DNA of 64,000 bases from Diphasiastrum complanatum (taxonomy: Eukaryota > Streptophyta > Lycopodiopsida > Lycopodiales > Lycopodiaceae), in NCBI GenBank assembly GCA_029204225.1, contig MU832076.1, positions 1 through 64,000 of the forward strand. The letters are read 5' to 3'. Positions within the stretch are counted from its first letter, which is position 1, and the number at the start of each line of letters is the position of its first letter. The translations under genes were made by a program, and so were the position numbers. The notes below the pieces were generated by a model that saw only the letters and a list, made by a program, of their open reading frames with translations, did not search any database and was not told the origin of the DNA. Positions 14,971-44,206 of this stretch are shown here, in pieces.

Positions 14971-15364
14971 TTATTTGGATGGATTGTGACTTGAAATACA
15001 TATTTCATGCTTGACTCTAGAGTTTCATGCAGTTGACTCTCTATCTCATTTCATGCTTATACATACTATCCACTGGTGCACTATACTTGTGATTGCATGT
15101 AATTTTATTTGTAGAATAATCTATATTTTTTATTTTTGGATTCACACTTGTGAAATACAGTAGCTTGTTGGTTTTGTACGGATAGCAACAATAATTTATC
15201 ATTTCATTCAAGTTTGATCAAGTTCCATTAGTGTTTGCATCTCATTTTGTGTGTAGATGCTGATTTTTTTTACATTGGTGAGATTGGTAGTGTATTTCTC
15301 TTTCTAACCAAAGATCTTTTAAGTGGATTGGAAGGCTTAATGATATAAAATCTTTCACACTTCA

Positions 15365-16195: not shown

Positions 16196-16311
16196 GTCTT
16201 TCTACTCATCGTCTGAATAGTCTTTCTGTCCATTTGGAATTTGAACATCTTGTTCTGGATACTTAGGGTCTGTTCCTTTCGTTGATGTTGGTAGATCATA
16301 GTAGTCTCTAG

Positions 16312-17280: not shown

Positions 17281-17289
17281 ATTCCCCTT

Positions 17290-18483: not shown

Positions 18484-20201
18484 TTTGATACACATTGTTT
18501 GAAAAACTCACATGTAGTTTATCTATTGATTTAAGATGGATTGAATTAGGTGAAGCTCAAAAGGAGAAACTTTCTTTTGGCAAAAGCTATATGAGATGCC
18601 ATGATTCTTACATGGAGCAACTCATGCACGAGGACCAATGGTATTGTTTTTATTTGGATGGATTGTGACTTGAAATACATATTTCATGCTTGACTCTAGA
18701 GTTTCATACAATTGACTTTCTTTGAAGTAATTGAAAAACTATTGCAAAGTGTTTAACCTACTCTTCACAAGAACTCAATGAATATGTACATTAATGACAT
18801 TGTTCGAGAAGTCATGAAAGATATCCTCATAAGGGCTAAAAGTTTTTTGACACTTTGTTGGGACAAATGGCATCATTAAAAATTTGTGGGTCATGTATTA
18901 GGTCAAGAAGGTTTGACATCTCTCTTTTGCAATATAAATTTGGCAATATCTACATCTAAGATCTATCATACTAAAGAAATCTTCTAGCTTTATCTAGTCA
19001 AATAGATTGTCGATCTTGAAAATTAAATATCAAATTTTGATGACAGTCATGCTCACAACTTGAAAAGTCTTATCATTCTTTTTCTACAAACAGGACAAAT
19101 CTAAATAGAAAAACCCTTGTTCTAAATCAATCCATTAAACTCCAAAATTTAGTTTTCTAACATTCTAGACAACACACACAATGTAGGGACACCAACTCAA
19201 TTTTGTGATCTACAAGTATTTCTAGGAGATTATTTTGTGAGTCATTCCTTTGAAAAAACATTAGCAAGCTCTTTAAATCAATCCTCAATTTTGGTTGGTA
19301 GCACTTCTCTCTGGTCTTTTCACCATCTTCTATATGCTAGAAGTTGAAAAGATGGTATCAAAGTCCTTCATCCATTATCATGTTGTCCATTAGTAATTCT
19401 GTTACTAGATTTTGTTCAATGTCAAAACTTCAAAGCATTGATGGAGAATCAATCAGGTGCTAAGATCAAAGTGCTTAGGTGGTGAGTATCGATCTACAAC
19501 TTTCATTGATTTTGGCAAGGAACATGGGATTAAACATCAACTTGCACATGTTGATACATCCCAACATATGTCCTCAAATCACTATCAAAATAGCAAGTTT
19601 ACTATTTTTGGCCACCAACCAGCTCTAATACTATGTGAAAATTCTAGATCCAAAGATCTCAGGCAAGAATTATTGCACTAACCACTGATTTATCTATGTT
19701 AAACAACTCATTCGCTAGCTTGCTAGGTTGATCAGTCATTAGAGGAGTTCTCAATATCAAAAAGACCCTTTGTAAAAATACTTTTATTTTTTTTCTTTAG
19801 TTTCGACCGTCATCAGGCCCAATCAAAATGCACAGATTTGAAATCTACGTAACGTAGTTCAAATTAACTAAAAAAAAAAAATGCAATATAGAAAACTTTG
19901 AAATTTGTGTCCGGGCAGCATGGACGTATCCCATTGGTTTCTTCTTCCTGTCCGACACATGCTAATCTGCCCGACGTCAATAAGTCAAGTTAAATTTACT
20001 TGACTATGCTGGTTAGTATAATGAAAATTTCTAACTATACTAGTTACAGTTATAGAAATATAGTATGTACAGTTACATAAAATATGGTATACGCAGTAAC
20101 TGTGACTATGTTGGCATTACATTAGATTAAATGTGATACGAAAAATTGAAATTAAGTATCATATCAGAGAGATTTTTGGCGCCCAAGCTTTGAAAATAGC
20201 A
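18484..20201. other. Degenerate copia fragments, no intact gene
   Basis: 18625-18715 repeats the block seen at 14951-15030 of copia D. Around 19430-19570 on the plus strand a frameshifted integrase fragment is visible (GAKIK, then GGEYRSTTFIDF and KEHGIKHQLAHVD). The rest is AT-rich and shows nothing I can name. Confidence 0.6.
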
Positions 20202-21294
20202 ATGGCAAGGAGACCCAGATCTACAATCGATTCTGTGATTCTTTACAATGAGAAAGATGGAGCTGATAACTGGAAGCCAACAAAACATATGAAGAACTCA
20301 TGGGTATTGCTGCATCCATCATCAAAGGGCAATTTTCGACAAAAGAAAAGAGCAAAAATGTGAATGGGAACCCGCACAATCACTTGCAAGAATATTAGAC
20401 ATGATTCACTCTGATGTTGGAAAGCTGCAATACAGAGGAAGATGTCCAAAGGAACTTGCAGATTGTGGTATCTATTTTTATGAATCATTATATACGCCAC
20501 AAACAGATGGATGTTTTGGCAAGCTCGAAGCAATTCCATTGCCTATCTTTCAAAGTGATGAGTGGCCTACTCCGGACAACATTGTTTCTGAATCCTTCAT
20601 ATGCAAGCTACTAATTGATATTAGAAATGCTATGAAGATAAGCATAGGCTCGAAAATTGTTCACCTAAGTTGGTTTATCTCATTACATATATTTGTTGAT
20701 TTTTTCTCGAGTGCTAGTGTTCGTAGGACACCAACTTTATTTGTTTGCAAGGATTTATCAGATGAGACTTTGTCAGATCTCATGGATCAAGGCTGGGATA
20801 GTAAAACAAATAATGACATAGAATGCAGGATTAAAAAGTCCTCAATGATCTTTCGTTATCATATCGAAAAGCAAATGCTCAGTCTCACATTTAGCTACTA
20901 GAGATACAAGAAAATTGAAGGTACATGGCTACCACTGGATCAAGATTTTGAACTAAATGGTCACACAAACCGAATGGAGATAAGCATTATCTACACTGAG
21001 GAATATTTTACTATGGTTGAGGTGGAAGAACATTGGAAGTTTGATTTTATCAGAACAGAGCTCATGCTATTACAAACCAATCTACCAACATATTTCAGAT
21101 TTATCATCAACGAAAGACTCGTAAGTACTTTATGTTTATTGCCATGTCAAAATAGAACAAAATAATAGACAATGTCATGATTTACAATAGCACATTCACT
21201 AATATTTGTCATGTCACAGATGAGAAAAAGACAGAAGCTGATAACGTGCTGCAAAGATCTACCTACAACAATCATCATTGTGGGAGAACAATAG
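20202..21294 (+). pseudogene. Family A protein, copy 1 (unrecognised, broken)
   Basis: Function unknown. The best block, 20360-21120, aligns without gaps over about 44 residues to copy 2 (CEWEPAQSLARIL against YDWQHVKSFTGKF; CGIYFYESLY against LGVYFYDHMY). It stays alignable to the end (PTYFRFIINERL against PTNFVFTINGQI). An intron at 21121-21219 splits the frame in phase 0 at the same place as in copy 2, and the last exon is MRKRQKLITCCK to the stop at 21292. The C-terminal 60 residues look like a beta-grasp/ubiquitin-like end; that is inference from pattern only. Breaks: TAG at 20899-20901 where copy 2 has Arg, and a frame change near 20320 separating the ATG at 20202 from the main frame. 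Confidence 0.65.
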
Positions 21295-21489
21295 TTTCAA
21301 ATAAACTTTAGTACAAATCTGTGTATACACTCTTTCATTCAATAAATGAAAGCCCAATTTGGGCATCAATACATGTATTTTGTGCTCCCAAATTCATAAA
21401 ATGGAACAACATTTGATATATAAATGTATATTTTTCTATGAATTCTATACATGTATTTTTTTTCTATGCTATCTATATATGTTCTGATC

Positions 21490-21835
21490 TTAATTTAGTA
21501 CTACTACATCATCCTTTGCACCATCATCAATAAAGGGAGGCTGAAGCCTTGCCCTAGCCAGTATACTCAGGATGATTTCTTGTCTGAATCTGTACACCTG
21601 GCTTGATGTGTACTCAGGAAGTGTAAACTGCAAAATAGAACATTCATGTATTAGTAATGGCTAAAAACATCAACAAAATAGAAAACTAATCATGATTCCA
21701 AAAATAAAAATAAACATAATTTATTACCTTAGAAATATCAACATTTTCTTGAAGGTTGAACCACTCAAAAAATAACTTGGCATTGTATAAGTGTACCACC
21801 CACAACTGAATGAATCATTTTGCTGTGGTGACTGC
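21490..21835 (-). CDS. Two probable 3' exons of a minus-strand gene
   Basis: Exon 21627-21490 reads FTLPEYTSSQVYRFRQEIIL and ends in TAA at 21490-21492. It is preceded by acceptor TTTTGCAG. Exon 21835-21728 reads KLFFEWFNLQENVDISK and ends at a GTAATA donor. Joined, DISK runs into FTLPEY in phase 0. They are probably the last exons of the H3-like gene upstream, but the junction to its donor at 22596 is out of phase as I read it. I do not recognise the sequence. Confidence 0.45.
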
Positions 21836-21912
21836 AAAATAATTTAGCACAAAAAAAATCAATTATCAAACAAAATGAATTAGAATGAAACAATTACATT
21901 AGAATATCGATT

Positions 21913-22392
21913 TCAACATGCCGGTTCAGGTTTCACAAAATCTGTGGTGTCTACGATCTTTGCTCTCTTTGGAGCTCTCTTGGGGGCACTCTGCTTCCTA
22001 GGACGCTTCGTAGGAAGATCAGTCCTATCTACAGGTGTTGGCCTGGGAGCAGAAGGCTGAGATACGTGCAACCTACAGAACCTATCCCTCATTCTCATCA
22101 AGATTTGAAAATCCTTGGGCATTATTGTGACTCTCTTGGAATGAATGGCAAGCAAAAATGAATCTCCAAAAAAAGGACTAAGGTAATCTTCAGCAGCCTC
22201 CTGAAGGCACCGAAGAGCACTGGGTGTAAATCTGACCAGCTGTCCGAGATCATTTCTTGTTATGTTTTGGACAGCACGGTAGAATGGAGCCCTTGGGATC
22301 AATAGCACAGTTGATCTTTGGTACTTGCGTATCTCAGAGAGCCACCTGCTGCGGTTGCACGTTCTATGTCTAGCAGGAGTGGTAATGGCCAC
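21913..22392 (-). pseudogene. Histone H3-fold protein, tandem copy 2 (short)
   Basis: About 95% like the long copy at 22593-23543 over the histone fold and basic tail, but homology ends at KPEP (21923). It then stops at once, so it lacks the ~170-residue C-terminal extension. The fold is recognisable from EIRKYQRST (alpha-N), FYRAVQNI (alpha-1), LQEAAEDYL (alpha-2) and KRVTIMPKDFQ (loop 2/alpha-3). No ATG opens the frame: it is open from about 22425, and the upstream ATG (MDRRK) is followed by TAG. It lies where an intron of the long copy would be, so it may be an intronic duplication rather than a separate gene. Confidence 0.7.
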
Positions 22393-22561
22393 TGCAGGGG
22401 CTGAGGATGAGCCAAGAGAGAAGAAGTCCTTCCTGGTCTACTTTCTCCTATCCATGGATGTGTACTATGGAATAGCGGACTTGCGCGTGACGGGGAGGAT
22501 GAGAACAGAAGGGTGACAAAAATCTCACAGAGGACCGATATGTACGAAAGGAATGTATGGT
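21923..22561. repeat. Tandem duplicate of the H3-fold exon (with 23074-23712)
   Basis: A 639-bp unit, direct orientation, matched by 23074-23712 with only scattered substitutions. It covers the H3-fold exon, the basic tail and the upstream ATG-bearing segment. About 510 bp separate the copies. Confidence 0.93.
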
Positions 22562-22592
22562 GCATAAAACAGGAAGAATCACTTAATATATC

Positions 22593-23543
22593 TTACTTGG
22601 TATGATAAGAAATGACCAGATACTTTGTTGCTGGTGTGAATCCACTTGTCAGACACTGTGACAATGTGTCATTATTCTTCTTGAAGGCCTGGAGCAGAAA
22701 ATTACTCAGCACCAACAACTCGTTTGATGAATCTCTTGCAATGTCAAATTGCAAGAGTGTTAGCCCGGACTCTATCACAGGATCACTGATAGAAGTCCGT
22801 CTGTCTTTGAGATCCAAGCAATCTAAAACTCTAAAATTAATACTAAAATCAAGTTCATCTAGTCTAAAACAAAAAGGAGTACCAATTTTATCTATAGCAT
22901 CCGATATGTCTTTCTCAAATCTAAGATACTCATCCGAATCTGTATATGTATAAAGAATTGGAGGAGGAGGAGGAGGTGGATGTGTAGTATCTACAAGAAT
23001 TAAAGCAATATCCAAAACAACTGTAGCTATATTTACAGCATTATCAACAACAGCGTTATCTACAATTGATTTTGGTTCAGGTTTCACAAAATTTGTGGTG
23101 TCTACGATCTTTGCTCTCTTTGGAGCTCTCTTGGAGGCACTCTGCTTCCTAGGATGCTTCGTAGGAAGATCAGTCCTATCTACAAGTGTTGGCCTGGGAG
23201 CAGAAGGCTGAGATACGTGCAACCTACAGAACCTATCCCTCATTCTCATCAAGATCTGAAAATCCTTGGGCATTATTGTGACTCTCTTGGAATGAATGGC
23301 AAGCAAAAATGAATCTCCAAAAAAAGGACTAAGGTAATATTCAGCAGCCTCCTGAAGGCACTGAAGAGCACTGGGTGTAAATCTGACCAGCTGTCCGAGA
23401 TCATTTCTTGTTATGTTTCGAACAGCACGGTAGAATGGAGCCCTTGGGATCAACAGCGCAGTTGATCTCTGGTACTTGCGTATCTCAGAGAGCCACCTAC
23501 TGCGGTTGCGCGTTCTATGTCTAGCAGGAGGGGTAATGGCCAC
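22593..23543 (-). CDS. Divergent histone H3-fold protein with C-terminal extension
   Basis: Residues 19-105 match histone H3: alpha-N EIRKYQRST, alpha-1 PFYRAVRNI, alpha-2 SALQCLQEAAEYYL, loop 2/alpha-3 HSKRVTIMPKDFQILMR. Loop 1 (TRNDLGQLVRF) is one residue longer than in canonical H3, a feature of centromeric H3 variants. LIPRAPF in place of LIRKLPF also recalls CENH3. The canonical ARTKQTARK tail is absent. After the fold comes a basic NLS-like stretch (KRAPKRAK, about 137-144), a proline run and a ~150-residue acidic/hydrophobic region I do not recognise; canonical H3 stops right after alpha-3. The start is unresolved: the first residues come from a GTG, and the nearest ATG (23606) is followed by TAG. 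A GTAAGA donor at 22596 suggests more exons. It is divergent with the gene at 23835, about 300 bp apart. Confidence 0.8.
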   Translation of the reverse strand: MAITPPARHRTRNRSRWLSEIRKYQRSTALLIPRAPFYRAVRNITRNDLGQLVRFTPSALQCLQEAAEYYLSPFFGDSFLLAIHSKRVTIMPKDFQILMRMRDRFCRLHVSQPSAPRPTLVDRTDLPTKHPRKQSASKRAPKRAKIVDTTNFVKPEPKSIVDNAVVDNAVNIATVVLDIALILVDTTHPPPPPPPILYTYTDSDEYLRFEKDISDAIDKIGTPFCFRLDELDFSINFRVLDCLDLKDRRTSISDPVIESGLTLLQFDIARDSSNELLVLSNFLLQAFKKNNDTLSQCLTSGFTPATKYLVISYHTK

Positions 23544-23834
23544 CGCAGGGGCTGAGGATGAGCCAAGAGAGAAGAAGTCCCTCCTGGTCTACTTTCTCCT
23601 ATCCATGGATGTGTACTACGCAATAGCAAACTTGCGCGCGACGGGGAGGATGAGAATAGAAGGGTGACAAAAATCTCACAGAGGACCGATATGTACGGAA
23701 GGAATGTATGGTATATCGGACCTGTGCGAGTTGAATATAACAGAAAGATATTAGTTCTGAAGAAACGCGCACAAGTGTGATACAGGGGGACACGTAGGCA
23801 GGTGTATCAGACCTGTGCGCATGAAAGGCGGTAG

Positions 23835-25000
23835 GTGGAAATTCGAGTGTGTGTACTTTTTTTGTTAGTTCAGATCCCAGATGATGATGAAATTTTTGTT
23901 GCTGACCCTCCCTTTTCATCATCCTCCATTCAGTCAGCTATTAAGGACATCAGTCACTTTCTTATCGACACTCCTGATAAGGAAAGTGACTTTATAAATA
24001 TAAATACTGATTCTCTACGGGATTCATTTATTGGCCAAAATACATCTGCTGATGAATCCAACCCTACAAAGGATTCTAAATGTCTATTCAATTTGTCTGT
24101 ATATTATATTAATGACGATGTATATTTTACTACTGCTGATTTATGTAAGTTTTTTGACTATCGTGAAGAAGAGGTTCTATGTTTATTATCCGGCACAATT
24201 TCCGAATTCTCCAGCTTCGTAGATTTTGAAACATATGATCTTGTTGCTGGTATTGATTTTGATGATGAGGAGGGAATTATGACTGCTGAAGAATGCTTGA
24301 ATAAGACTTTCTCAAATATAACTGAGGATGGGCGAGGCAGACCATCCGATGAAGAATTCACGGCATTTCAATCCCATATGGGCTTCCCTCGTCCATCATT
24401 ATTGCATTTCACAGATGATTCCAGTTCAGTACGTGGTCATTATATTGATCATCCTGATCTGGTTGCTGCTGAAGATGAAGAATGTGTACGTGTTTAAACT
24501 TCCTTGCATTACGATATTTCTAATCATTGAATGTGTTTTTGCTAACAAATTTCCTATTGTAGGATGCTCTCATAATAGATGATTTTGCTGCGAGACGAGG
24601 TGGTTTCAGACAACATGCATCATCTTTCCAGAGGGATAGTGGACCTGGCCACTATCTTAGGCATTTCCTGAAGAATGAGATCTGTATTGCTCATTCCACG
24701 CTGAGCCCGGTCGAGGAGACTCTTATGATGGCAGTTAAAGCCTTATCATTTTACCTAGGAGGACATAAATTTGTAAAGACAAATAAGATCATTTTTGTCA
24801 AAAGATCTTATGTTTTGAACATTTTAGGCTTTACTGATGGGAATGTTCCTTTAAGGAGCTCCCATTATTCATTGTATTCCACTTATATTGAGCTTAGTGG
24901 AAATAAGAATAATGCACATCTATTAGATGCATACGCTAGCAGAGAATTTCTTCATGACAATACTGCCATAGAATCTGACACAAGATCTGATGATGAATAG
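23835..25000 (+). CDS. Unrecognised acidic protein, two exons
   Basis: Exon ~23877-24485 and exon 24563-25000 flank a 77-bp GT-AG intron (24486-24562, GTACGT...TTGTAG), joining EDEEC to DALIIDDF in frame. The 5' end is unclear: there is no ATG in frame, and the coding part may begin after an acceptor near 23876 (IPDDDEIFVADPPF). The protein is acidic and serine-rich. It holds NDDVYFTTADLCKFFDY (about 95-111), which looks like a small winged or KilA-N-like DNA-binding element, and a C-terminal IIFVKRSYVLNILGFTDG. That DNA-binding idea is a guess. It ends ESDTRSDDE and stop. It shares an upstream region with the H3-fold gene. Confidence 0.6.
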
Positions 25001-26561
25001 TTGACACTTTGTATTTTGGTATAATACAATCAATACATTTACATTGAGTATTTCTTCTTTCTTGTTCAATGAATTTGCAAAGCGATTCTGAACATGTCAT
25101 GATTTGATGATAATGATGATCTTGCACTCAACAATCATCTAATTTTCTCTTTCTGTATGAACTTGCATGCTTTTCTAAACTTGTTGTATTGTGTGGACTT
25201 TGTTATATGTCAAATTTGAATTTTGCGGTAGAACCACTGAAACAATTGACAAATGTAGTTTCGGTTTTCATTGGTTCCTCCATGTTGTGTATTTCGATGA
25301 AATGCTGCTTGTGCTTGCCAATGTGGCTTCTCCATCCCTTGTGATGACCATACACTCAAGCTTCCATATGTATTTGCAAAAAATGTTGTATGATCTCTTA
25401 GTATGTGATGCATATGTCAAAATCATAATGTTAGTCTTATGTTTGGATCTAAATATATATTTAAATTTGAAAGCATTTTAAGAATTTAATACTAACCATG
25501 TAATGAGTGATGTGATCATCTCCCCATGCTTTTGATACTGCATTAACAAACTCGACACAAGTCCTTTGGACAGCTTGCTTATCAATATCAGAGTATTTTT
25601 TTTCTTAAAATAGCAATCATACTATCAAGCTTTTTCCATACATCAACTTTTAGTACTCTGATTTTGTCGTCTTTCTCGAAGTCCTGAGTAGCAGCAATAA
25701 TATCTGTCCAGACTGAGTGTTGAATATTAGAAGCCCTACCAGTACGATTTGATAGGAAATGACGTGCTTTTGCTCCTCCTATGTTGGCTTAGTTGGCATG
25801 TTCCCATTCTTTCCTGAAAGCTTTTCATCTTTTTGAATTTTGACATGTCCTTTATGGAGTCTTGATTTTGATAAAACATCTTCTAATCGAGAGATAACTT
25901 CCTTTGCTAATGATGCTGGCTTAGTATTCCAAGCAAAAACTATATGAAGATAAATGATCTTTTCTATTAATCTAACTTCTGCACGAAGAGTGCAAACATG
26001 CACATTTTGTAAGGGGATAGGCAGCACAGGCTTCCAGTTTGGATCTGCATATTCTCTAGTAATTACTGTGCTCCTAGTTACATCTTTTGCCATTTTCATA
26101 CAGTACAAACAAGGGTGTTTTGATGTAGCACCGTGAGATACATTATACATACATTTTAATGTTTTCAAATCACCTGCTAAGTGCCATTCAACATTGAAGT
26201 CTCCAACTCCTAGAACATTGAGAAGTCCTCCATCCATATGGTCCTTGATGATCCTAGGATAAGATGTCCTTGAGAATATCCATGATAATATATCATTATT
26301 CTCTTTTAGAACTTGTCCAAAAAAATTAATCAGACTTAATTTACAATGCATTAATACTATTTAATGAATGTAATGTAATAATGAGGCTAGTTACCTGAAA
26401 CACTGCCAACCACCATATATCATTTTCTGGCTGGACACTAAATCTGAAATCTTCTTGGTTCTCTGTTTGTGATAGAGCACCATTCATGAGAGTTATACTA
26501 ACCCTCTCCATCTTCTGCCCTTTCACAATTTCTGACTCATCTAATTTAAGTACTATGATTA

Positions 26562-26566
26562 TTTTG
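26562..26566. repeat. Target site duplication TTTTG (left), copia A
   Basis: TTTTG at 26562-26566 is repeated at 32428-32432 on the other side of the element. Deleting one copy plus the element restores an open minus-strand frame through the junction. Confidence 0.97.
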
Positions 26567-27219
26567 TGTGAAAAATTGTCAACTAGTAGTATTTTCCTAA
26601 CTTGAGATTTTGTAGGCCTATGGCCAAATAAAAGTTAGAGATAGGTTCATACATGTATGTAGAGGCCCAAAGTATGTGTACACTACTTTTGAGGTCACAT
26701 TAATTAGAGGAGGTCGAGTGTGGAGCTCTTCTATTGGCTCATAATTTGGTGCATTCCTATTTGACCAAATTTCTAGGTATATGGGTGAATCCTATTGGAC
26801 CCCAATTTTAGCCTATCATAAGACAAGTGGCCAAGAGGCACTATGGCTGCTATAAATAGCCATCTCCACGAGTATGTACACATCTCATTTTCATTCTATT
26901 GAATGAATGTTATGCTCTTTGAAGGTCCATCTTCTTCTCTCTCACTTTTTTGTTCATATCTTGCATTCTAGCCACTAGAATTGTGATTTCTTTGTTGCTA
27001 TGGCTTCACACGTGTGAAATGCAGGTTGTAGGCTCTGAAGTACGGACAGGGACAGCAAGTTTCTGTTTGTGGAAGCTTATGATCAGATTTTGATGTTTAG
27101 TTGATGTTTAGTATGCTTAACATCACAATTTCTATCATTTTTTCAATCTAGATGTGCATAACTTCCATGGCCAAGATCTTTATGAAACTTTAGCATCTTT
27201 TGGATCTGAGTTTTTCACA
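26567..27219 (+). repeat. 5' LTR of copia A
   Basis: 653 bp, TG...CA. A TATA box TATAAATAG at 26851-26859 places the likely transcription start near 26880. A 14-bp perfect dyad TTCACACGTGTGAA lies at 27005-27018, in the part that would be transcribed. It is offset by exactly 5208 bp from the 3' LTR. Confidence 0.98.
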
Positions 27220-27231
27220 TGGTATCAGAGC
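27220..27231 (+). other. Primer-binding site of copia A
   Basis: TGGTATCAGAGC, complementary to the 3' end of initiator tRNA-Met, begins directly after the LTR, the usual arrangement in plant copia elements. Confidence 0.93.
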
Positions 27232-27828
27232 ATTAGGCGGCCAAATGTGCAGGTTTTGCCAGATTTAGAAGAGATTTGTGGGCGAGTTTGCTTTTGTAGC
27301 ATTCCAATCAAGTTTCTAGCTAAAAATCTTGTTGATTTATGTGTAGAAATTGGATCTTTGTGATCAAAACATCATTTGTATGCATTTCAATTGAAGTAGG
27401 GCGAATTCCCTCTGTACTTATCAGAATAAGGAGACAAAAATTGTTTTGGAAAGAGGGAGATGCAAGATCCAACAAGATCCTATTAGTTTTCCATTCTAGC
27501 ATATAGTTTTTTGATTCAATTTCTTGCTTCTTCATGTCAAAAACTTCAAAATTGATGTAACCCTCTGATTTTCAGTTTGCTGAATGATTCAAGAGTGTAT
27601 TTCAATCTTAGGAGTGAGGGAAAAGCAAGTATATTGAGGTTTGGTCTTGGTTTGATCAAGAAATCATAAAACTAGTGGCTAAAATTAAGGAAAAAGTGAG
27701 GAAAAGAGAGAAAAAGTAAGGTTTTAGGTTCCAAATCTTTGTGATTTCTTCTTGTGTTTCATTTGTTGATTCAAGAGAGTGCTTAGTGCATTGGAACAGG
27801 TCAAAGATCAGAGATCAATCATTGCAAC

Positions 27829-30800
27829 ATGGCTACAAATGGAGGCTACATGTTGGAAAGCAATGATAGGCTTACCTCCCTCAACTATTCTACTTGGAAA
27901 GTAAGGATGGAGTCTTTGCTTGAGATGAATGAGTTGATGGATATTGTTGTAGGTGTGGAGGAGAGACCTTTGGCACCTCAAGAACAATTGAGGTATGACA
28001 AGAGGGCAAAGAAAGCCCTTCACATGATCAAGATGAATGTGACAAATGAGCTTATCAAAGAGGTTGGTAAGTGCACATCATCTAGTGAAGCTTGGGAAGC
28101 CTTGAAGAAGGTTTATGAATCCAAGTCTACTTCTAGAGTGTTGACTTTAAGAAGGCAAATCTTTTCTTGTATGCAAAAGAAGAGTGAGAATGGACATGCT
28201 TTTGTTTTGAGAGTTAAAGCATTGAATGATGAGTTAGCATGCATTAATGATGGCATAAATAATGAGGAGCTTGTTCAAGTGATTCTCAATGGCTTGTTGG
28301 ATGATCATGCTAATCTTGTTCAAAGTTATGCTATCCAAAAATGTTTACCAAGTGTTGGAGACTTGCAAGAGGTCTTGTTGGCTGAAGAATTCAGGTTGCA
28401 AGCAAGAGTGGGAGCATCTTCTACATCTCAAGGAGGAGAAGAGGAGGCAATGTTCTCTAAAGGCAAGTTCAAGGGCAAAGGTAAAAGCAATTGGTCTAAA
28501 GGGCAAGACCAAGGTGAGCACTCTACTTTTGGCAAAAAGAAGGATAGATCTAAGCTAAAATGTTTCTATTGTGGAGTCAAAGGGCATTTTGCTAGTGATT
28601 GTTTTAAGAAAAAGAGGGATCAAGGGGAAAAGCAAACCAATCTAACTATTGATGAGGGTGGGGATGAGCTTCTTTCAAATGATGCTTTTGTTATGTCATC
28701 TTGCTTGTTGGCTAATCATGGAGACATTGATCCTTGGTGGATTGATAGTGGAGCCACTTCTCATATGACATATCATAAAGAGTATTTTTCATCTTTAATG
28801 GCATTTGATGGTGATAGGAAGGTAATCTATACCGCAAATGATGGTGAGTGTGCAATCAAGGGGATTGGCACAATTCCTATTTCACTTTCTACAAATAGGA
28901 ATATAGAATTGAAAGATGTTTTGCTCATTCCATCCATTACCAAGAACTTACTTAGTGTAAGCCAAATGCTTGACAAAGGATTCAAAGTTGAGTTTGATGG
29001 TGATGCTTGCTTGATCAAAAAGGGGTGTAGTATCATTGCAAAAGGGAAAAGGCAAGGGAAATTGTTCAAGCTTGATGCATGTGTTGTTGCTAACCAAGTT
29101 GGATGCATGGCAAATGAACAAATGTCAATTCAAGAGGTATGGCATAAAAGGATGGGACATCTCAACTACAAGGCCTTGGAGGTAATAGCCAAAAAGGAGG
29201 TAGTAAGGGGACTTCCCAAGTCTCTTACTTGCTTGAATCATGTTTGTGAAGAATGTGCTTTGTCTAAATCACATAGATTGCCATATACTAGATCTATATC
29301 TAGATCTAAGATGCCTTTTTCTCTCTTGCATTCGGATATTCATGGTGTTACTACAATTAGCAATGGAGGTGCTAAGATGTATGTAACTTTCATTGATGAT
29401 TTTAGTAGATTTTGTTGGGTTTATCTACTAAAGAGCAAGGATGAGGTGTTTGATGTGTTTGTCAAGTTCAAAGTTGCTATTGAGACTCAATTTACAACCA
29501 AAATCAAATGCTTGAGGAGCGACAATGGTGGTGAATACATTTCTAACAAATTCAAAGCCTTTTGCGATGAGCATGGGATCAAGAGGGAGTACACATGTCC
29601 AAGAACACCACAACAAAATGGAGTGGCCGAGAGGAAGAATAGAACCTTGTGTGAGAGTGCAAAGGCAATGAGATTGAATGCTAATCTTCCTAAACCTTTT
29701 TGGAGTGATGCTTTGTTGTGTGCAAATTTCCTATGCAATAGATGGCCAAGTGTTGTATTGGAAGGAAAAACCCCTTTTGAAGCTTTGTTTGGTACGAAGC
29801 CTAATGTCAAGTTTCTAAGAACTTTTGGATGCATTTGCTACTTCAACATTACTCTTGATGATAGAACTAAGGAGGATCCATCTTCAAGAAAGGGCATTTT
29901 TGTTGGTTATAGTGAAGTAAGCAAAGCATATAGGATTTATGTTCCTTCAATCAAGAAAGTGTTCACAAGTAGGGATGTCATTTTTGATGAAGGTAACATT
30001 CCAAAAGTTGTTTCAAGTGATGATGGTGTTGTTGCAACTAATGTGCTTGATGACAATGGAGTTGATGACACATTGGATGTGGATGTTGAAGAAGCCTCTT
30101 CAAGTCAAATTCCAAGGAGAACTCCAAGGCATAAAGTGAAACCCTCAAGGCTCACTTATGATGGCAAAGGTAAGCAAGTGGTGGATGGATCCAACTATGC
30201 TTTCCTAACTTCTTTTGATGTACCTTCATGTGTAGATGAAGCAAGGCAAGAAGAGGAATGGATCCAAGCAATGGATCTTGAGTTTGAAGCACTTATGAAG
30301 AACAACACATGGAGATTGGTGGAGCTTCCAAAGGGCAAAAGTGCAATTGGATGCAAATGGATCTTCAAGGTAAAGACAAATCAAGATGGATCTATCAACA
30401 AGTTGAAGGCAAGGTTGGTGGCTAAAGGTTATGCTCAAGAGCATGGCATTGACTATGAGGAAACCTTTGCACCCGTGGCAAAGATGGTGAGCATAAGAGT
30501 AATCATTTCCCTTGCAACTCTTTATGGATGGGATCTTTGGCAATTAGACATTTCTAATGCTTTCTTGAATGGTGATCTTGAAGAGGAAGTCTACATGGAG
30601 CAACCCGAGAGCTATGTTTCTCATAGCAAGCCTAATCATGTGTGTTTTCTACAAAAAAGTTTGTATGGTCTTAAGCAAGCACCAAGGAGTTGGTATGCTA
30701 GGCTTAACTCTTTTCTACTTTCTCAAAACTTCACTATGAGTGAGTATGATCATTCACTTTACTTTAGAATTAGTGCTAATGATGTTACAATCCTTCTAAT

Positions 30801-31779
30801 TTATGTGGATGACATTATTTTAAGTGGAGGGAACAAGGAAGATATAGAAGATATCAAGAAAGCACTAAAAAAGGAATTTGAAGTGCATGATCTTGGTCTT
30901 TTGAGCTATATCTTAGGAATAGAAGTAATTAGAACTTCTCAAATCACTTTTATTTCACAAGAGAAGTATGCTATTTCTATTCTCAATAGATTTCATATGG
31001 TAGATGCAAATCCTATTGATACACCTATGGAATCACATGTAAAGCTAACTATAAGAGGTAATGAAAGATCCTTCGAGGACATTACTCTCTATAGGAAGCT
31101 AATAGGTTCTCTTATATATCTAACCATCACAAGACCTGATTTATCTTATTGTGTTGGTAAATTAAGCCAATTCATGCAAGATCCTAGCATAGAACATTGG
31201 AAACTAGGAAAGAGGATCTTGAGATACATCTCGGGAACAAAAGATTTTGGCATTGTTTATAGAGGCTCATCACCTAACTTATTTGGTTTTTCAGATTCAG
31301 ATTTTGCAGGAGACCTTATGGATAGAAAATCCATAAATGCACATGCTATTTTCATAGGTGATGGAGCTATCTCATGGATGTCGAAGAAACAAGCAACTAT
31401 ATCACTTTCTTCTAGTGAGGCCGAGTACAAAGCTTTGACATCATGCACAAAGGAGATGGTGTGGATCAAGAGGATGATTATGGAGCTTCATTTGCTGGAT
31501 TTTTCAGAGAGTCCAATCATCTTTTGTGACAACCTTTCAGCCCAAAGTCTAGCAAGCAATCCGGTTTTCCATGCAAGGAGCAAACATATCGAGGTGGCTT
31601 ACCATTTTGTGAGAGAACAAGTGTTGGCAAAAGAGATCAAGCTTGAACATGTCCCATCAAAGGAATGTGTGGCTGATATCTTTACCAAAGCATTGGGAAA
31701 GGACTTATTTTTCAAGCATAGAACAAGTCTTGGTGTACTTTCTAAATCTATGCTAAAACTAGTTGAAGAGGGAGTGTGA
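27829..31779 (+). CDS. gag-pol: Copia A gag-pol polyprotein, intact
   Basis: 1316 residues in one frame, starting at ATG 27829. Gag (about 1-230) is followed by a CCHC zinc knuckle CFYCGVKGHFASDC (245-258). The aspartic protease has DSG at 306-308. The pre-integrase zinc motif uses H439, H444, C473 and C476. The integrase catalytic triad is D503, D565 and E601, spacing D-61-D-35-E. The reverse transcriptase has YVDD at 992-995. RNase H lies after about 1140 (SKKQATISLSSSEAEY, then CDNLSAQSLA) and the polyprotein ends ...KLVEEGV. Domain order gag-PR-INT-RT-RH is diagnostic of Ty1/copia. The stop overlaps the start of the 3' LTR (31775). No catalytic residue is missing. Confidence 0.97.
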   Translation: MATNGGYMLESNDRLTSLNYSTWKVRMESLLEMNELMDIVVGVEERPLAPQEQLRYDKRAKKALHMIKMNVTNELIKEVGKCTSSSEAWEALKKVYESKSTSRVLTLRRQIFSCMQKKSENGHAFVLRVKALNDELACINDGINNEELVQVILNGLLDDHANLVQSYAIQKCLPSVGDLQEVLLAEEFRLQARVGASSTSQGGEEEAMFSKGKFKGKGKSNWSKGQDQGEHSTFGKKKDRSKLKCFYCGVKGHFASDCFKKKRDQGEKQTNLTIDEGGDELLSNDAFVMSSCLLANHGDIDPWWIDSGATSHMTYHKEYFSSLMAFDGDRKVIYTANDGECAIKGIGTIPISLSTNRNIELKDVLLIPSITKNLLSVSQMLDKGFKVEFDGDACLIKKGCSIIAKGKRQGKLFKLDACVVANQVGCMANEQMSIQEVWHKRMGHLNYKALEVIAKKEVVRGLPKSLTCLNHVCEECALSKSHRLPYTRSISRSKMPFSLLHSDIHGVTTISNGGAKMYVTFIDDFSRFCWVYLLKSKDEVFDVFVKFKVAIETQFTTKIKCLRSDNGGEYISNKFKAFCDEHGIKREYTCPRTPQQNGVAERKNRTLCESAKAMRLNANLPKPFWSDALLCANFLCNRWPSVVLEGKTPFEALFGTKPNVKFLRTFGCICYFNITLDDRTKEDPSSRKGIFVGYSEVSKAYRIYVPSIKKVFTSRDVIFDEGNIPKVVSSDDGVVATNVLDDNGVDDTLDVDVEEASSSQIPRRTPRHKVKPSRLTYDGKGKQVVDGSNYAFLTSFDVPSCVDEARQEEEWIQAMDLEFEALMKNNTWRLVELPKGKSAIGCKWIFKVKTNQDGSINKLKARLVAKGYAQEHGIDYEETFAPVAKMVSIRVIISLATLYGWDLWQLDISNAFLNGDLEEEVYMEQPESYVSHSKPNHVCFLQKSLYGLKQAPRSWYARLNSFLLSQNFTMSEYDHSLYFRISANDVTILLIYVDDIILSGGNKEDIEDIKKALKKEFEVHDLGLLSYILGIEVIRTSQITFISQEKYAISILNRFHMVDANPIDTPMESHVKLTIRGNERSFEDITLYRKLIGSLIYLTITRPDLSYCVGKLSQFMQDPSIEHWKLGKRILRYISGTKDFGIVYRGSSPNLFGFSDSDFAGDLMDRKSINAHAIFIGDGAISWMSKKQATISLSSSEAEYKALTSCTKEMVWIKRMIMELHLLDFSESPIIFCDNLSAQSLASNPVFHARSKHIEVAYHFVREQVLAKEIKLEHVPSKECVADIFTKALGKDLFFKHRTSLGVLSKSMLKLVEEGV

Positions 31780-32427
31780 AAAATTGTCAACTAGTAGTAT
31801 TTTCCTAACTTGAGATTTTGTAGGCCTATGGCCAAATAAAAGTTAGAGATAGGTTCATACATGTATGTAGAGGCCCAAAGTATGTGTACACTACTTTTGA
31901 GGTCACATTAATTAGAGGAGGTCGAGTGTGGAGCTCTTCTATTGGCTCATAATTTGGTGCATTCCTATTTGACCAAATTTCTAGGTATATGGGTGAATCC
32001 TATTGGACCCCAATTTTAGCCTATCATAAGACAAGTGGCCAAGAGGCACTATGGCTGCTATAAATAGCCATCTCCACGAGTATGTACACATCTCATTTTC
32101 ATTCTATTGAATGAATGTTATGCTCTTTGAAGGTCCATCTTCTTCTCTCTCACTTTTTTGTTCATATCTTGCATTCTAGCCACTAGAATTGTGATTTCTT
32201 TGTTGCTATGGCTTCACACGTGTGAAATGCAGGTTGTAGGCTCTGAAGTACGGACAGGGACAGCAAGTTTCTGTTTGTGGAAGCTTATGATCAGATTTTG
32301 ATGTTTAGTTGATGTTTAGTATGCTTAACATCACAATTTCTATCATTTTTTCAATCTAGATGTGCATAACTTCCATGGCCAAGATCTTTATGAAACTTTA
32401 GCATCTTTTGGATCTGAGTTTTTCACA
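31775..32427 (+). repeat. 3' LTR of copia A
   Basis: 653 bp, apparently identical to the 5' LTR by eye. It is preceded by the polypurine tract AGAGGGAG (31767-31774) and followed by the TTTTG duplication. Confidence 0.98.
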
Positions 32428-33623
32428 TTTTGCCATTCACCTTTTCATAGGTTATATCATAGAATGTGATGATGTATCTCAGCAAGTAATTTAGATCAAC
32501 AAATAAATTGTTTGATGAATTATAGAATATCGATCTTCCATCAGTTTCATACACCTCCTCAATATGAAATGGAGTTCCAGTGATCTTATGCATACCTATG
32601 TTTAATGTATCCCTCTCTTTCTTCAAGTGATATGTCCTAGGGATTGGGACTTTTTTAATTTGAACTTGCTTAAAAGCTTCTCTAATTAGTTTAAATATTG
32701 TTGCATATGCTTCCCTGCTAATACCCGCAAAATCACAAGCATCCTGAACTATAGTCTTATCTAAATTTTTTTTAATGTCCACCATCAAAGACTCTGCAAT
32801 TTTACACTTTACATTTGAAATCCTATTGTTCATCATGATACGCTCAGTGGATTTGCAAGTCAATATTGTGCCCAATGACATTCCTAGTGAAGCATTGTCT
32901 TTAATATTTCGAGGAGCTACTAATGCAGATCTGCAAAAAAAACAGATAGTTAACAGAATATCACCATAGCTGAAATTAAATCCAAATGTCATTGAAAAAC
33001 TTACAAAAATCAGAATATGCTTACTTGAATGCACGGATCCTTCTATTTTGATAACCTCCTTTTGAAAGCGTTTGAATATCCTTGCAACTTTTTCACTTTC
33101 GCTTCTTACTTTCAGCCTTCTTCTTTGCCAAATCCACATCCTTCGATAATTGTAAGTTTTCAATACGAATAGACTATAAGAATGATTGCATTTGCTCTAG
33201 TTCTGATTTGATATCGATTGTTATCTTCTGTAATGATTCATTATTTTTTTTAAGTTGTTCATTTTCTTCTAATGTCTTTTGGAGATGAAAATCTCTATTT
33301 TGACAATAAGAGGATATCCGAATTAACTCACCTTCTAAAAAGTGAACTTTATTCATATAAATTTGTTTTCCCTGGTTCTGCAATCTTTCACAATATCCTA
33401 GTAATCCACTATGTCCATTGCATATCCATGTAACTAAATGAGTTATTGAAGAGAACTTGGGATGTGTCAAAGTGCTTGGATCTTGTGGATATAATGTTCC
33501 ATCTATCCACAAATCCAAGTTTTTTTTTCCTTCTGCCCTGTAACGAGAATGATCCTCAACAGATATTTGAATTCCTTTGCCTCCTCTTCTCTGCAAAGGT
33601 GCCAAATCAATAGGGATATCCAC

Positions 33624-36622
33624 ATGCAGATGATAGAGAAATCAGTTGTATCAAAGTACTATGACCAGATTCTATGAAGCAAAGCAAAGTACTAATCTTT
33701 GATTATATTATATACTATGTACGATCAATCCAAACTCCATGCTTGTAAGCTTGATTCAAATTTGAAAATGCCGCTCATTTTTTCATTCCAATAGGTAGTT
33801 GGCGCTCATATTTCCATTCCAAAGTAATGATGATCTATTGAAAATATTGCCCTTTTTGTAACCAATGGAGGGAATATTTTTGAATTTAGTAAGTTATACT
33901 GCGAACTGTTAACAGTTTTTAACTGTGACTATAGACACTGTGGTTAGATCATTGGGAGTTGGGGAGGCCTTGGGAGTGGTGTGGGCAAGCAAATAAACAA
34001 TATTGTTTTTTAAATTTTGATATTTTTCTATATCCTACATGGCATTCCTTAAAGCATCTTTTTGATATTGAGAACTCCTCTAATGAACACTTACCAAATG
34101 GAAATAGAATCAAAAGATAATCAAATGATACTTAAATTTGATATTAAGCATCTATTTATTGTCTATAAAATAGTAAAATCATAGTTAATTCATCACCTAT
34201 ATGCACATCAATCAAAACACACCACAATTCTTACACAAATATAAAAGATAGCCAAAATGAGATGATAATATTCCTCCAAAAACTTTTCCAAACCAGATAT
34301 AGACAAAGGATTCACTTTTCTGAATAGGAACTCATGCTGACTACAAAAGTACTTAAGAGGCTGGTGATTTGCATACACTATAGACTTACTACCATACAAG
34401 TATTGTCTCCAAGTTTTAAGCTAAACATGCTACCACAACTGCTCAAAATGTCGAGTCAAGCCTGGCCCCTAATGATGACACATTTTTTGATGTTGTACCA
34501 TTGAAGATGTTGTACTTGAAGATGATTTAGTGAATGAAGAGCCAGGATCAGAGGATACGGTAGTTGTCTCAATTCCATTAAGAGCAGCCAGTGCGTCAAC
34601 AACAACATCACTAGATTCAATAGATGTCCAAGGAATTTATCAACACCTTGGCATTCTGCTTATCTAGTTGCTACAAGAGAAACAAAACCTCGGTGATCGC
34701 CTATACAAGCTAAGTATAGAAGGGAAATTACAAGCACAAGAGTACATAGGTTAAAAAATGAGCTGGAGGTGACACAATAGCATGAAAGGGCTGCACAAAA
34801 ACAGTTACAACAGGCCCAAGAAATGGAATTGACCTGGTGATCCTACATGCAACAAATTCAAAAGAGTTTAATGAATGCCAGTGGTCAAGTTTCCCAAGCA
34901 GTGCAACAACAAGTGCCCTTATTACAAGCACAAGTCAACATATAAAACTGTTGTAGAGAAGGAGCATCTTAACAAAATGGTAGCAGATCTTACTATTGAA
35001 TGTGATGAGATCCTCGTAGCTCCACTATCAATTCTAGAGTACCTGACACTCCACAACTTATTGGTCCTTCAGCAAAGGGTGGCCAGGTACAAAATGACAC
35101 TAGTGAAATTCCAATCCTAGTTTGAGAGTTACAAGGGGTTTGATGTTGTAGCACTCCAAAAGGCAAAAACTGTATTACAAGCATAGCAACGACAAAGTCC
35201 CATTCCAATAGTGGTAATCTCACCCCCACCACTTCCACTAGATACCAACAAGAAGGGCCAACCCATGAAAACTTCATAGAATCAAGGGCCTGATGCTGGA
35301 GAGACAAGACTAGAGGAAGTAGCACCATCTAGCATGGCATCGACCCCATCAAGGCTTGCTTCACGAGCCTTTGCAAAGCCAAAGACGTCGACCAAAGAAA
35401 TAAATGAATTATTAGCTATCCATACCCATGAGTCTTCACGTGGTGGTTGGTCGCTAAAGTTCACGGCGGAAGAAATCAAGAACAAAGAGATCCAATCCAT
35501 ACCAGCACTGGATGATCAGCCGGCTTGGCACTTATGAATCTTTGAGAAAAATCCAAAGGCCCTCACACATTACGCATAAATCCATGGTATGTTCTCATGT
35601 CATGATGCAAGAAGTGTGGGCAGACTTTGGTCCAAGGGTCAAAATAAAAACTCCGATATGGTCAAAGATAAAAGCACCACATGGCTAGGCGACAAATGTG
35701 GACTTCATCAAGGCCTTGCGGACCAATGGAAAGGAGAGCATGCATTCACTCGATCCCACAATAATAAAAAAAATAGCCGATTATGCAACAGGTCTAGCAT
35801 ATTTAGTTGGCGTAAAGACCACTTGGGATAATTGCATGTCTCCCATTGCATTTAAAAAATCAAGATTTCGTCTTAGATGCAGTGTTGGATCAATTACCAT
35901 TCGCACAATTTGTCATGTATTTTAGTACATCCATGCTTATACAAGCAAGATAATATCCAATGTAAGCTTTGTAGGCCCAAAAGGAGTTATTAGCTTTAAC
36001 AACAAGGCGATTCCGTCAATAGGCCCTTCAAAGTAACTAATAAGGATAATAGGCCAATAAGGGCCCAATGTAGTTTAAATAATACTTAACAAGGGATAAC
36101 TATCCCTCAAGATAGTTATGTTCAGTTCAGTAAGAGCATTGTCTATAACTAGGCAAGAGATGTCAATTTGTGAATCTTTTGGCTCATTTGCAAGTGAGAG
36201 CTTTTAGCTTCCTTGTGAATGTGAGCCATAGGGATCTCCATTGCTAGGTCTCATGTGCCCTATCCACATGAATCAATGCTCATGTTCATATCTTGTACTC
36301 TTTCTTTCATTACTAATGTGATTCTATGCATTAGGGCCCTTTTTGGACTCAAAAAGGGCCTCTTCACTAATCATGATTAGTTTTAATGACGACACGTGTG
36401 CCAATAAAAGAATGACAATTGAGCAGCAATGGCCCATATGACATGGCAAATTGCATGGTGAAGATTAAATCAAGTGTGGGACCACTAAGTACACCTCTAG
36501 CATTAACCCTACATCAACTCTACATGGGAGGCTAACTACATATGTCACATAGCTAACTAGACCCAACATACCTGCACCTAATGGCTAGTTTATCTACTCA
36601 TTCAAAATATTCAACCTATACA

Positions 36623-36653
<31 letters not shown>

Positions 36654-36874
36654 AAATGACCTCCCACTCTACTCATTCTCCATATTGACATAGGCAATCT
36701 TTCCTCTGTATTATACACTCTCTAACTCAAGACCAGACACATTGTCTTTTCATATATCATGACTTCTAGTCAACAAGAAGAACAAAGATTCAATTAAACT
36801 TCATTGTTGCACCAATCAAAGACTCCAATGACCATTGGGTGCCTACGACATTTTTGACTCTTAATTGAGTATAT
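33624..36874. other. Non-genic, possible decayed element
   Basis: Short, stop-ridden plus-strand frames at 34.7-35.9 kb read like a glutamine-rich coiled coil (ERAAQKQLQQAQEMEL), then KPKTSTKEINELLAIHTHES and FTAEEIKNKEIQSIPALDDQ. They may be remnants of a gag-like or host frame; I do not recognise them. About 35.95-36.35 kb resembles an LTR in composition but lacks proven ends. A short (TC)n lies at 36627-36653. Confidence 0.4.
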
Positions 36875-38060
36875 ATGCAATCCTCTGGTAAAGGAATTCA
36901 TAGGCTTGCAAAGAGAAAATGTGACAACAAAGAGCACCATTGGAGAGGAAGAATTCACGAATTCAAAGTCGATTGCAATGGAGATTACCTAGCCAGAGTG
37001 CAACATGTCTACATGCGTAGAGATATTTTGTTGGACACGGTAGTTGTTGATAGAAAATACTTTCGCATTGTAAGTCTTACATCTTTGAATGTCAGAGATA
37101 TTTTACTTGTAAATTATTGTTGCTTCATTCTATTACCTCTTGTCCAGATGTTTTTCCTTCAGATAGCTATGACTGGCAGCACGTAAAATCGTTTACGGGA
37201 AAGTTCTCTACAATATATGCAAAATATGGAGTACTAATATATGATGGGCTCAAGTCTTCTGCGACCATAAGATTGGGTGTTTACTTTTACGATCACATGT
37301 ATGAAGTTCCAAAGAAGAACTTTGGGACTGGCAAATTATTGTTTCTTTTGGAGCCTACAATCGATTCTCACGATTGGCCTTGTGTTGATGAATTGACCAT
37401 CGAATTGACAAAATTCCAACTCGCCAAAGAGATTACAATGAATATGAAGCCAACATTTGGATCCAAACGTGTTTACACTAGTGTCAGCATGCCTATCGTT
37501 GTATTTGTTGCCATATTTAAAACAATACCATTTAGAAAAAGAAATACATTATGGGTATGGAAAGCGATAGAATCCTCATTGTTGGACAATGTATCTACTT
37601 CTTGGGACTCATGGAATGTAGATCACAAAGGTGATTTAATAAGGTGTGATATTTGTCATGAGACGATGACAATAAGATATCACATTGCACGCCAAACGTG
37701 CTCCTTCAGTTTCGTTTATAGGCGGTTCAAGTCTCACGGTCGATGGGATAGCTTGGATGTAGAGACGAGACATCAAGAATTTGAACTATCCATCCATATG
37801 CCAAATGATGAAGGGCGGAAAGTCTGTGTTAATGGTGAATGGAGTCTGGAAGATGTACGGGCTATGGTTGGTTTAATATATGCTGATGTGCCCACAAATT
37901 TTGTGTTCACTATCAACGGACAAATCGTAAGTGTAAACAATAAACGTGCTTCCAAATTTGTAAATGGCTGTTGAACACATATATAAAATGAATTTTAATA
38001 TCGATATGGTGGTGTTTGATTTTTCAGATCAGGAGACGCACAGAAAAACACCAAAAGTGA
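36875..38060 (+). CDS. Family A protein, copy 2 (unrecognised)
   Basis: Paralogue of the broken gene at 20.2 kb. A first exon from ATG 36875 (MQSSGKGIHRLAKRKCDNKE...) ends at a good donor (GTAAGT at 37070). The main exon runs from about 37148-37163 to 37926, and the last exon 38028-38057 (IRRRTEKHQK) ends at TGA 38058-38060. The second intron, 37927-38027, is GT-AG, phase 0, at the same place as in copy 1. The acceptor of intron 1 is not resolved: the obvious AGs are out of phase by one. Conserved points shared with copy 1 are GVYFYDHMY, MTIRYHIARQ and the end ADVPTNFVFTINGQI, which resembles the last strand of a ubiquitin-like fold (inference). An extra CDIC pair is present only here. Confidence 0.65.
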
Positions 38061-38551: not shown

Positions 38552-39610
38552 ATGGCACGTATGAAACAAACATCAAGGAGGAATCCAAGGGAAACAATGT
38601 TATTGCACCAAGCCACTTTACAAGCAATAGAAGCACAGAAAAGGTGCTCGAGGAGTACGAGTAGGAGCAAAAGTAGCAGCATTGAACCTGTGGCATTGAA
38701 AATGGACCAGAATCAGGATGAGTGGGCAACAATGGATGATCCTAGGGAGGTTCCCATGGATTGTGAGCAGGTGCAGGGGCAGGAGCAGGGGCAACAACAT
38801 GTGGCAATGGAAGAGCTTGGGTAGCAGCAAGCAGCTATGGATGAGCAGGGGCAGGAGCAGGGGCAGCAACAACCACCTCTAGATGAGCAGTAGATGGCCA
38901 GAGCAGTAGAGGATGTCCTACTGCATGATTTTGGTGTGAGGTCAGTGCTGAAAAGCCCCTCTTCAACATAGAGCCAGCGCGAAGCCACTCAGGCTTTTCT
39001 GAATAGTGAGGTAGCTGCTTCTAGGCCGATTCCCAATGATTTCCTTGGGATCTTTGACGATCAGGGTCTCAAGAAGAGGTGCCTCTTGATGGCTTTGTGG
39101 TTTGTTCGTCAGGAGTCGGAGCAGCTTCAGGGGACTCCACTCCGACACAATTACTCGGACATGTGCAAGGGCCTGTAATGGGGCCCATGATATCCTTGCT
39201 CGTCGGCTTAGACCAGACACCCCACACAGAAGACGTTGGGGAGGCTTCTCAGCATGTCAAGCCCACATCACGGCCGAAATCTAAAGTTGTTCGTCAAAAG
39301 AGAGGTCACTCGAAGCCTCGACGCCTTCCGCATACCATCCCTCAATCACAGCCACAGCCGGAAGCTCCCCAGGTGCCTCGAGATCAGTCAGCACCAGAGG
39401 TGCCGCAGGACCCCCCCACGGGACCCTCCCATGCAAGATGAGGCAGGTCCTAGCCAGCCAGCAACACGGAGTAGGGCAGCCAGACCGCCACCACCCCGGC
39501 AAGGCAAGGTCCTCAGAAGGATGCAGCCTCCGCAACCACGCCGCCAAAGACATGGACATGTTTTCCAAGAGATATGTGTAAGAAGTACTTTGTGGGATTG
39601 GAAAGCTTGT
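38552..39610 (+). pseudogene. Broken frames beginning with an H3-tail-like sequence
   Basis: ATG 38552 opens MARMKQTSRRNPRE, which matches the histone H3 N-terminus (MARTKQTARK) at 7 of 10 residues. A Gln/Glu-rich repeat follows (VQGQEQGQQHVAMEELG, then DEQGQEQGQQQPPLDEQ after a stop), then AVEDVLLHDFGVRS, NDFLGIFDDQGLKKRCLLM and ALWFVRQESEQL. A basic, proline-rich end (to about 39600) is spread over shifting frames. Stops at 38822 and 38890 and later frame changes mark it as degenerate. I do not recognise the rest. GC content is higher than in the surroundings, hinting at a different origin. Confidence 0.45.
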
Positions 39611-44205: not shown

Positions 44206-44206
44206 T

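Follow-up and report, generated by a model that had tools for sequence, protein, structure and literature searches.

A repeated multi-gene DNA transposon of Diphasiastrum complanatum with a predicted histone H3-Ulp1 fusion gene

Positions 19737-34085 of a 64,000-nucleotide stretch of the genome of the lycopod Diphasiastrum complanatum are one decayed copy of a repeated multi-gene DNA transposon of the cut-and-paste type with short inverted ends. The stretch (contig MU832076.1 of assembly GCA_029204225.1, positions 1 to 64,000) is called the window here, and coordinates given without a contig name refer to it. One gene of the element is predicted to encode a histone H3 fold and, joined to it, a SUMO-protease-like domain of the Ulp1 (C48) kind, and we are nearly certain that a mobile unit carries this fusion. 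The explanation that we prefer as a whole is a cut-and-paste transposon with a selected fusion and a chromatin role that we infer. In our judgment its probability is about 0.6.

The window copy is read on the minus strand and is 14,349 bp long, of which 5,861 bp belong to a copia element (copia A) and a further part to a local duplication of H3 sequence. Its terminal inverted repeat (TIR) at 19737-19771 on the plus strand, CATTAGAGGAGTTCTCAATATCAAAAAG..., agrees in 33 of 35 bases with the second end at 34051-34085 on the minus strand. In the minus-strand reading, one inverted end is followed by a gene with DDE motifs, gene B on the opposite strand, the H3-Ulp1 gene, the family A gene A1, again on the opposite strand, and the other inverted end. 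We searched a genome of 1,744,706,496 bases, divided into 5176 contigs. In this set the window is contig C558, and other copies are named by contig (C1, C3, C8, C19, and C23); some contigs are near-identical second copies of one place. The short inverted ends of the element read CATTAGAGGAGTTCTC... With at most one mismatch, the 27-base end has 1919 matches in the genome (940 + 979), and the reversed control has 0 and 0. The same inverted ends are thus found on dispersed copies, as is usual for a DNA transposon. Exact ends are crowded in two stretches of C1, approximately 65.0-66.7 and 95.5-98.6 Mb (100 places listed, all on C1).

The window from 34085 down to 19735 is collinear with C3:29551200-29567199 at 93-95% identity. 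The collinearity is broken at copia A, next to B, where about 945 bp have been lost, at the local H3 duplication, and at A1. The complete copy on C3 (C3:29554425-29562433, 8009 bp) has both inverted ends, the 35-bp pair being 94% identical, and is without A1. A boundary at C3 position 10781 was considered as an end of the element and rejected, as it reflects the lack of A1 in the C3 copy.

The C3 copy interrupts a gene of a repeated copia element. When its flanks are joined without the element (CATTAG...CTAATG), they align with a copia protein of the window over 98 amino acids (E 6e-20), gapless at the joint. The site also exists uninterrupted elsewhere in the genome: the joined flanks (154 bases) have 40 scored uninterrupted sites among 3413 candidates. 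Twenty-eight of these match bases 1-154 over exactly 154 bases, nine are partial matches of equal length, and three are off by one base. Since 28 of the 40 empty sites are exactly equal in length, the insertion on C3 made no target-site duplication (TSD). A TA duplication (which would mean 8 bp more) and an AC duplication (2 bp less) were both rejected at this site, the copia alignment ending at the joint. At five other insertions, including that of the window, 0, 1, 0, 3, and 0 bases agree beside the ends; four of the five consist of exact ends on C1 that face each other at distances of 2.6-9.5 kb and were paired from the listing of end matches. No shared target motif was seen in the six flank pairs, which are a small sample.

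The linkage of the genes was studied in 60 fetched loci, 30 centred on H3 with 1.5 kb flanks and 30 centred on B. These loci are the best-scoring ones rather than a random sample, and the window itself and some duplicate contigs are among them. The genes stand together in one order in them. Around H3, Ulp1 exon 2 was found in 27 loci, the last Ulp1 exon in 25, an A1-type gene in 24, and B exon 1 in 17. The A1-type gene lies on the same side of H3 and on the opposite strand in 24 of the 30 loci, the window included; in the C23 copy it has the same place and orientation and is 85% identical over the best stretch. Around B, a DDE exon was found in 27 loci and H3 in 5, the latter number being limited by the flank.

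An earlier note on this DNA had listed five genes and copia A, and all of them are present in the sequence, as follows from the identity of the long terminal repeats (LTRs) of copia A, the paralogy within family A, the Pfam Histone match, and the reading frames. It had further proposed a large self-mobilising DNA transposon with its own H3-like gene. The inverted ends, the copies, and the linked genes bear out the transposon, and the recurrence of the genes together elsewhere with common terminal repeats, which the note had named as a check, was found in the linked loci and the end matches. However, one of the five genes (A2) lies outside the element, "self-mobilising" depends on a putative transposase, the protein of the DDE-motif gene, and the expected target duplications are lacking at C3, the one insertion with a visible empty site.

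The fusion gene begins with an exon at 22624-23606 (minus strand) that comprises a start reading MDRRK(stop)TRR, the predicted H3 fold, a linker, and the start of the protease domain. The H3-fold stretch at 22596-23588 (minus strand) scores 97 bits against Pfam Histone (cut-off 26.4). A decayed Ulp1-like domain at 21490-21831, missed in the earlier note, continues the H3 gene. One of its exons, at 21728-21831 (minus strand), has the Gln/Cys motif PQQNDSFSCG and a 1-bp deletion in the window copy. The last exon, at 21490-21627 (minus strand), is the C-terminal part of the protease domain and is 80-88% identical, as protein, to its counterparts on C3 and C8. The broken Ulp1 fragment of the window by itself had no Pfam and no PDB match. 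In the C8 copy, where the exon joints were read by hand, one gene contains MDRKKQTRRDFF, the H3 fold, a proline-rich linker, and the Ulp1-like domain over three further exons. This fusion scores 87.1 bits for Pfam Histone and 29.6 bits for Peptidase_C48 (cut-off 20.7), and its Ulp1 part, searched alone, has yeast Ulp1 (1euv) as the best PDB match (E 6.6e-4). The earlier note had reported duplicated H3-fold exons. In the window this holds, as a partial duplicate of the exon at 21913-22437 (minus strand; Pfam Histone 91.1 bits) is 93.6% identical to the full exon over 172 amino acids; but the duplication was seen in the window copy only, and the C3, C8, and C23 copies hold one H3 exon each.

The start of the H3-Ulp1 protein resembles the H3 tail MARTKQTAR. 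Among the 26 loci with a script-readable fold (4 of the 30 were dropped), KQTR is found in 13 and K-stop-TR in three; the window is one of those with the stop, a TAG at the Gln site. A PDB search with the fold matched 175 sequences, and of the 60 listed 59 bear the name histone H3, the last being a "histone domain-containing protein". Loop 1 of the fold is one residue longer than that of H3. The fold has 54-60% identity to plant H3.1, the value against Arabidopsis CENH3 being 50-55%, and its scores are higher against H3.1 than against CENH3 or CENP-A; the reference sequences for these identities and scores were entered by hand. We place the fold in neither class. A structure model of the H3 exon has a predicted local distance difference test score (pLDDT) of 35.6 overall, with block means of 54-64 at residues 51-120; its helices come in histone order, and the model is too weak for searching. 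The H3 exon has at least 121 scored matches in the genome out of 9617 first-look candidates, mostly full length and with 78-91% identity. This number and the corresponding ones for B, DDE, and family A are lower bounds, because the scoring covers the best candidates only. Like peptidase C48 (Ulp1/SENP), which it matches in Pfam and PDB, the second domain keeps three active-site residues in most copies: His in 24 of 24, Gln in 21 of 21, and Cys in 19 of 21.

Selection was assessed by the ratio of nonsynonymous to synonymous differences (pN/pS). After the removal of near-duplicates 27 of the 30 loci were left, of which 24 had exon 2, 22 had exon 3, and 23 had exon 4; stop codons and gapped codons were excluded, and the intervals in brackets are 95% codon bootstrap intervals. 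The ratio is 0.33 (0.21-0.51) for the H3 fold and 0.91 (0.67-1.51), i.e., nearly neutral, for the linker. It is 0.36 (0.26-0.50) for the N-terminal part of Ulp1, where about a dozen codons beyond the splice site are included and raise the value if anything, and 0.42 (0.30-0.64), 0.18 (0.09-0.42), and 0.50 (0.30-0.96) for Ulp1 exons 2, 3, and 4. The tail of H3-Ulp1 has 0.65 (0.41-0.90), B exon 2 has 0.22, and the DDE exons have 0.60 and 0.58. Pooled pairwise ratios count shared branches repeatedly, and the contrast within the gene is the stronger point. By these ratios the fold and the protease exons are constrained and the linker between them is not. It is very probable that the fusion has been kept by selection for the element.

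Copia A splits the DDE-motif gene into a 5' part at 32428-33641 (minus strand), with a coiled coil and the first acidic motif, and a 3' part at 25497-26561 (minus strand), where the motifs GDLK and HPCLYC were recognized by eye. The longer piece of the 5' part is about 93% identical, as protein, to the corresponding stretches on C3 and C8, and the DDE exon has at least 150 scored genome matches. Exon 1 of gene B (23853-24497, plus strand) is 5'-truncated, about 945 bp being lost beside 23852, where the C3 alignment jumps from 7722 to 8667; in a near-identical copy on C19 the first-exon region gives a reading of 337 amino acids. Exon 2 (24563-25000, plus strand) has at least 150 scored genome matches at 90-100% identity. 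Gene B has no Pfam family above the cut-off and no convincing PDB relative (window reading in Pfam; 479-amino-acid C19 reading). Gene A1 (20202-21294, plus strand) is frame-shifted, with one stop and a basic last exon. As the earlier note had it, A1 and A2 are paralogues (30% identity over 184 amino acids, E 2.8e-21, plus a second collinear stretch). Family A has at least 145 scored genome matches in two groups, and its AlphaFold2 model from two sequences is unusable (mean pLDDT 31.3).

Published systems are compared here as excerpts of the cited papers present them. Fungal hAT elements carry a captured canonical H3: Pseudocercospora has hundreds of copies, and of the 26 copies in Pyrenophora 23 are apparently coding (PMC6710886). 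The same source reports that these H3 genes were inactivated by repeat-induced point mutation (RIP) in Pseudocercospora and its relatives, that many Pyrenophora copies still code, and that the TSD is 8 bp. An H3 gene on a transposon is therefore no novelty. The Diphasiastrum element resembles the Dothideomycete hAT elements of this excerpt in being a DNA transposon with inverted ends and an H3-type coding sequence at tens to hundreds of copies. In contrast to them, its H3 fold is divergent (54-60% identical to plant H3.1), constrained, and fused to an Ulp1-like domain, and there is no TSD at the tested site. The 8-bp duplication of hAT is zero at C3, and none of the six flank pairs agree over 8 bp. 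Neither a hAT nor a Mutator-like element (MULE) transposase domain was matched in Pfam by the DDE readings, which are partly broken.

VANC of VANDAL elements strips silent marks from its own family (PMC10398659), and some VANDAL or KIU (Kaonashi) MULE genes carry an Ulp1 domain (PMC13317346). As far as these excerpts go, the likeness consists in a multi-gene plant DNA transposon, an accessory protein, and an Ulp1 domain fused to another part (here C48 at 29.6 vs. 20.7 bits). The anti-silencing activity of VANC is a worked function and the nearest worked example for our element. The difference is that the partner of Ulp1 here is an H3 fold and not VANC, and that the ends are inverted, unlike those of non-TIR MULEs. 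Spy elements insert within AAATTT without a target duplication and have a PHIS-type DDE domain (PMC4482050, excerpt). The absence of a TSD, here at one insertion (C3), is shared with them, but neither AAATTT at the flanks of the six insertions nor a PHIS-type DDE domain was seen. Our literature search, confined to open-access papers, turned up no selected H3-Ulp1 fusion, and we therefore do not claim its absence from print.

In the mechanism that we propose, the DDE-motif protein would cut and join the element. We infer this step, because the DDE gene has no Pfam family above the cut-off (with partly broken readings) and no PDB chain. The H3 fold would bring the fusion into chromatin, pairing with host H4 or acting through an H3 chaperone. 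The Ulp1-like domain would remove, or merely bind, SUMO-type modifiers on silencing proteins or histones; we are less sure of these two steps. The element or its insertion sites would thereby stay open, and B and A would be partners of the fusion. Since selection seems to have preserved the fold and the protease as the element spread, the data suggest that the element brings its own chromatin-modifying protein. An anti-silencing use of the fusion is our tentative proposal, to which we give somewhat less than even odds.

Several observations weigh against this explanation, the missing Pfam and PDB matches of the DDE gene among them. The Asp position of Ulp1, as set by a phmmer alignment with 1euv that has a gap adjoining it, carries Gly in 19 of the 24 copies, Ala in one, and Asp in four. 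Therefore protease activity is doubtful, and in this, as in its place behind an H3 fold, the domain is unlike peptidase C48. Many of the H3 matches carry stops, while others are open. There is little constraint on B exon 1 (pN/pS 0.69, 0.51-0.91) and none on the A exon (0.97, 0.52-2.35), and the interval of the DDE exon with 0.58 (0.36-1.07) has its upper bound above 1. The zero TSD is shown at a single insertion, the five others agreeing over 0-3 bases beside their ends. Finally, selection on the fusion could serve a use other than anti-silencing.

The fusion may instead serve transposition itself, with the H3 fold as a nucleosome anchor for target choice or packaging and the Ulp1-like part processing the transposase or stripping its modifiers. 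All the parts share one unit with the DDE gene, and the loss of Asp in most copies would fit binding over cutting. However, the six flank pairs, few as they are, have no common target motif, and nothing ties the H3-Ulp1 protein directly to the transposase; we regard this reading as unlikely, though it is the best of the alternatives. Passive capture, in which the transposon took a host H3 and a host Ulp1 gene by mere transduplication as in the fungal hAT elements, is less probable still. Capture of host genes is documented in the excerpts for H3 in fungal hAT (PMC6710886) and for Ulp1 in Vandal MULEs (PMC13317346), and stops in many copies agree with it, but the fold and the protease are constrained where the linker is not, and both domains stand in one gene, which has retained the two of them in 27 of the 30 loci. 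The earlier note's own alternative, host genes at a host locus struck by transposons, had one nested copia and local damage in its favour. It is refuted for A1, H3, B, and DDE by hundreds of dispersed matches, by the inverted ends that the copies share, and by the target sites found uninterrupted for one of them, which leaves it highly improbable. A giant-virus origin was also dropped: A2 and the exons of H3 and DDE, as single-sequence queries that reach close relatives only, matched nothing in the viral contigs scanned.

The second family A gene, A2 (36876-38060, plus strand), lies beyond the ends of the element, in a second repeated unit. The earlier note had counted it in the cluster; because the inverted repeats bound the unit at 19737-34085, A2 is not part of the element and was rejected as one of its genes, and the genes most closely related to it are accompanied by another repeated open reading frame (ORF). 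This ORF (38552-38824, plus strand) starts with MARMKQTSRRN in the window and has 114 genome matches. Among the best 30 of at least 145 A2 matches, at least 17 have it 335-609 bp downstream on the same strand. This comparison used 69 of the 114 ORF matches, namely rows 1 to 59 and ten from further down that were chosen because they had been seen near an A2 match. In the other group of family A, with about 67% identity, the H3-tail ORF was found at none of 20 members taken from the top rows with a few skipped. The upstream 300-1000 bp of two A2-family copies and the window had no common sequence (0 of 3 pairs).

In nine other copies, the ORF starts with MARTKQTAR, the exact first residues of H3, in four; the remaining five starts are MARTKQTGR, MARTKQTTR, MARTK-stop-TTR, MACTKQTTR, and MACTKQTAR. 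With such starts and its link to the A2-type gene, the ORF may be a histone mimic carried by a second mobile unit. More speculatively, and with slightly lower odds than the anti-silencing use itself, each of the two repeated units may pair a family A gene with an H3 mimic, namely the H3-Ulp1 fusion and the protein with the MARTKQTAR start. Mobile DNA would then counter silencing through its own histone-like proteins, in nucleosomes or impersonating them, with family A as the shared partner.

Copia A, with its TTTTG target duplication, occupies 26562-32432 (plus strand) and is nested in the DDE gene. Its LTRs (26567-27219 and 31775-32427) are identical in 653 of 653 bases, and it is not in the 99.2% identical C19 copy, judged from the spacing of matches. 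Because the LTRs are identical and the insertion is missing from the near-identical copy, copia A is young. The part-copy at C19:11.568-11.577 Mb, 99% identical to C558 and without copia A, has a different copia beside B and is perhaps the other haplotype. Copia sequences related to copia A are located at 12591-17508, 44036-47338, and 63637-63999. A DUF7869 gene at 56940-58616 (minus strand; Pfam 149 bits) is split across two reading frames; we take DUF7869 to be a transposase-like family. Two long open stretches at 5059-6845 (minus strand), the longer without a Pfam match, are possibly one ordinary gene.

Anti-silencing transposons and H3-capturing transposons are each already known, separately. 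If our explanation is true, the selected fusion would amount to a selfish histone variant whose H3 fold comes with a chromatin effector of its own, the SUMO-protease-like domain. It would offer a direct route to testing to what extent mobile DNA is able to rewrite the nucleosome by which it is silenced. Since an H3-tail ORF is linked to A2 as well, the data suggest that such an event may have occurred more than once in one genome.

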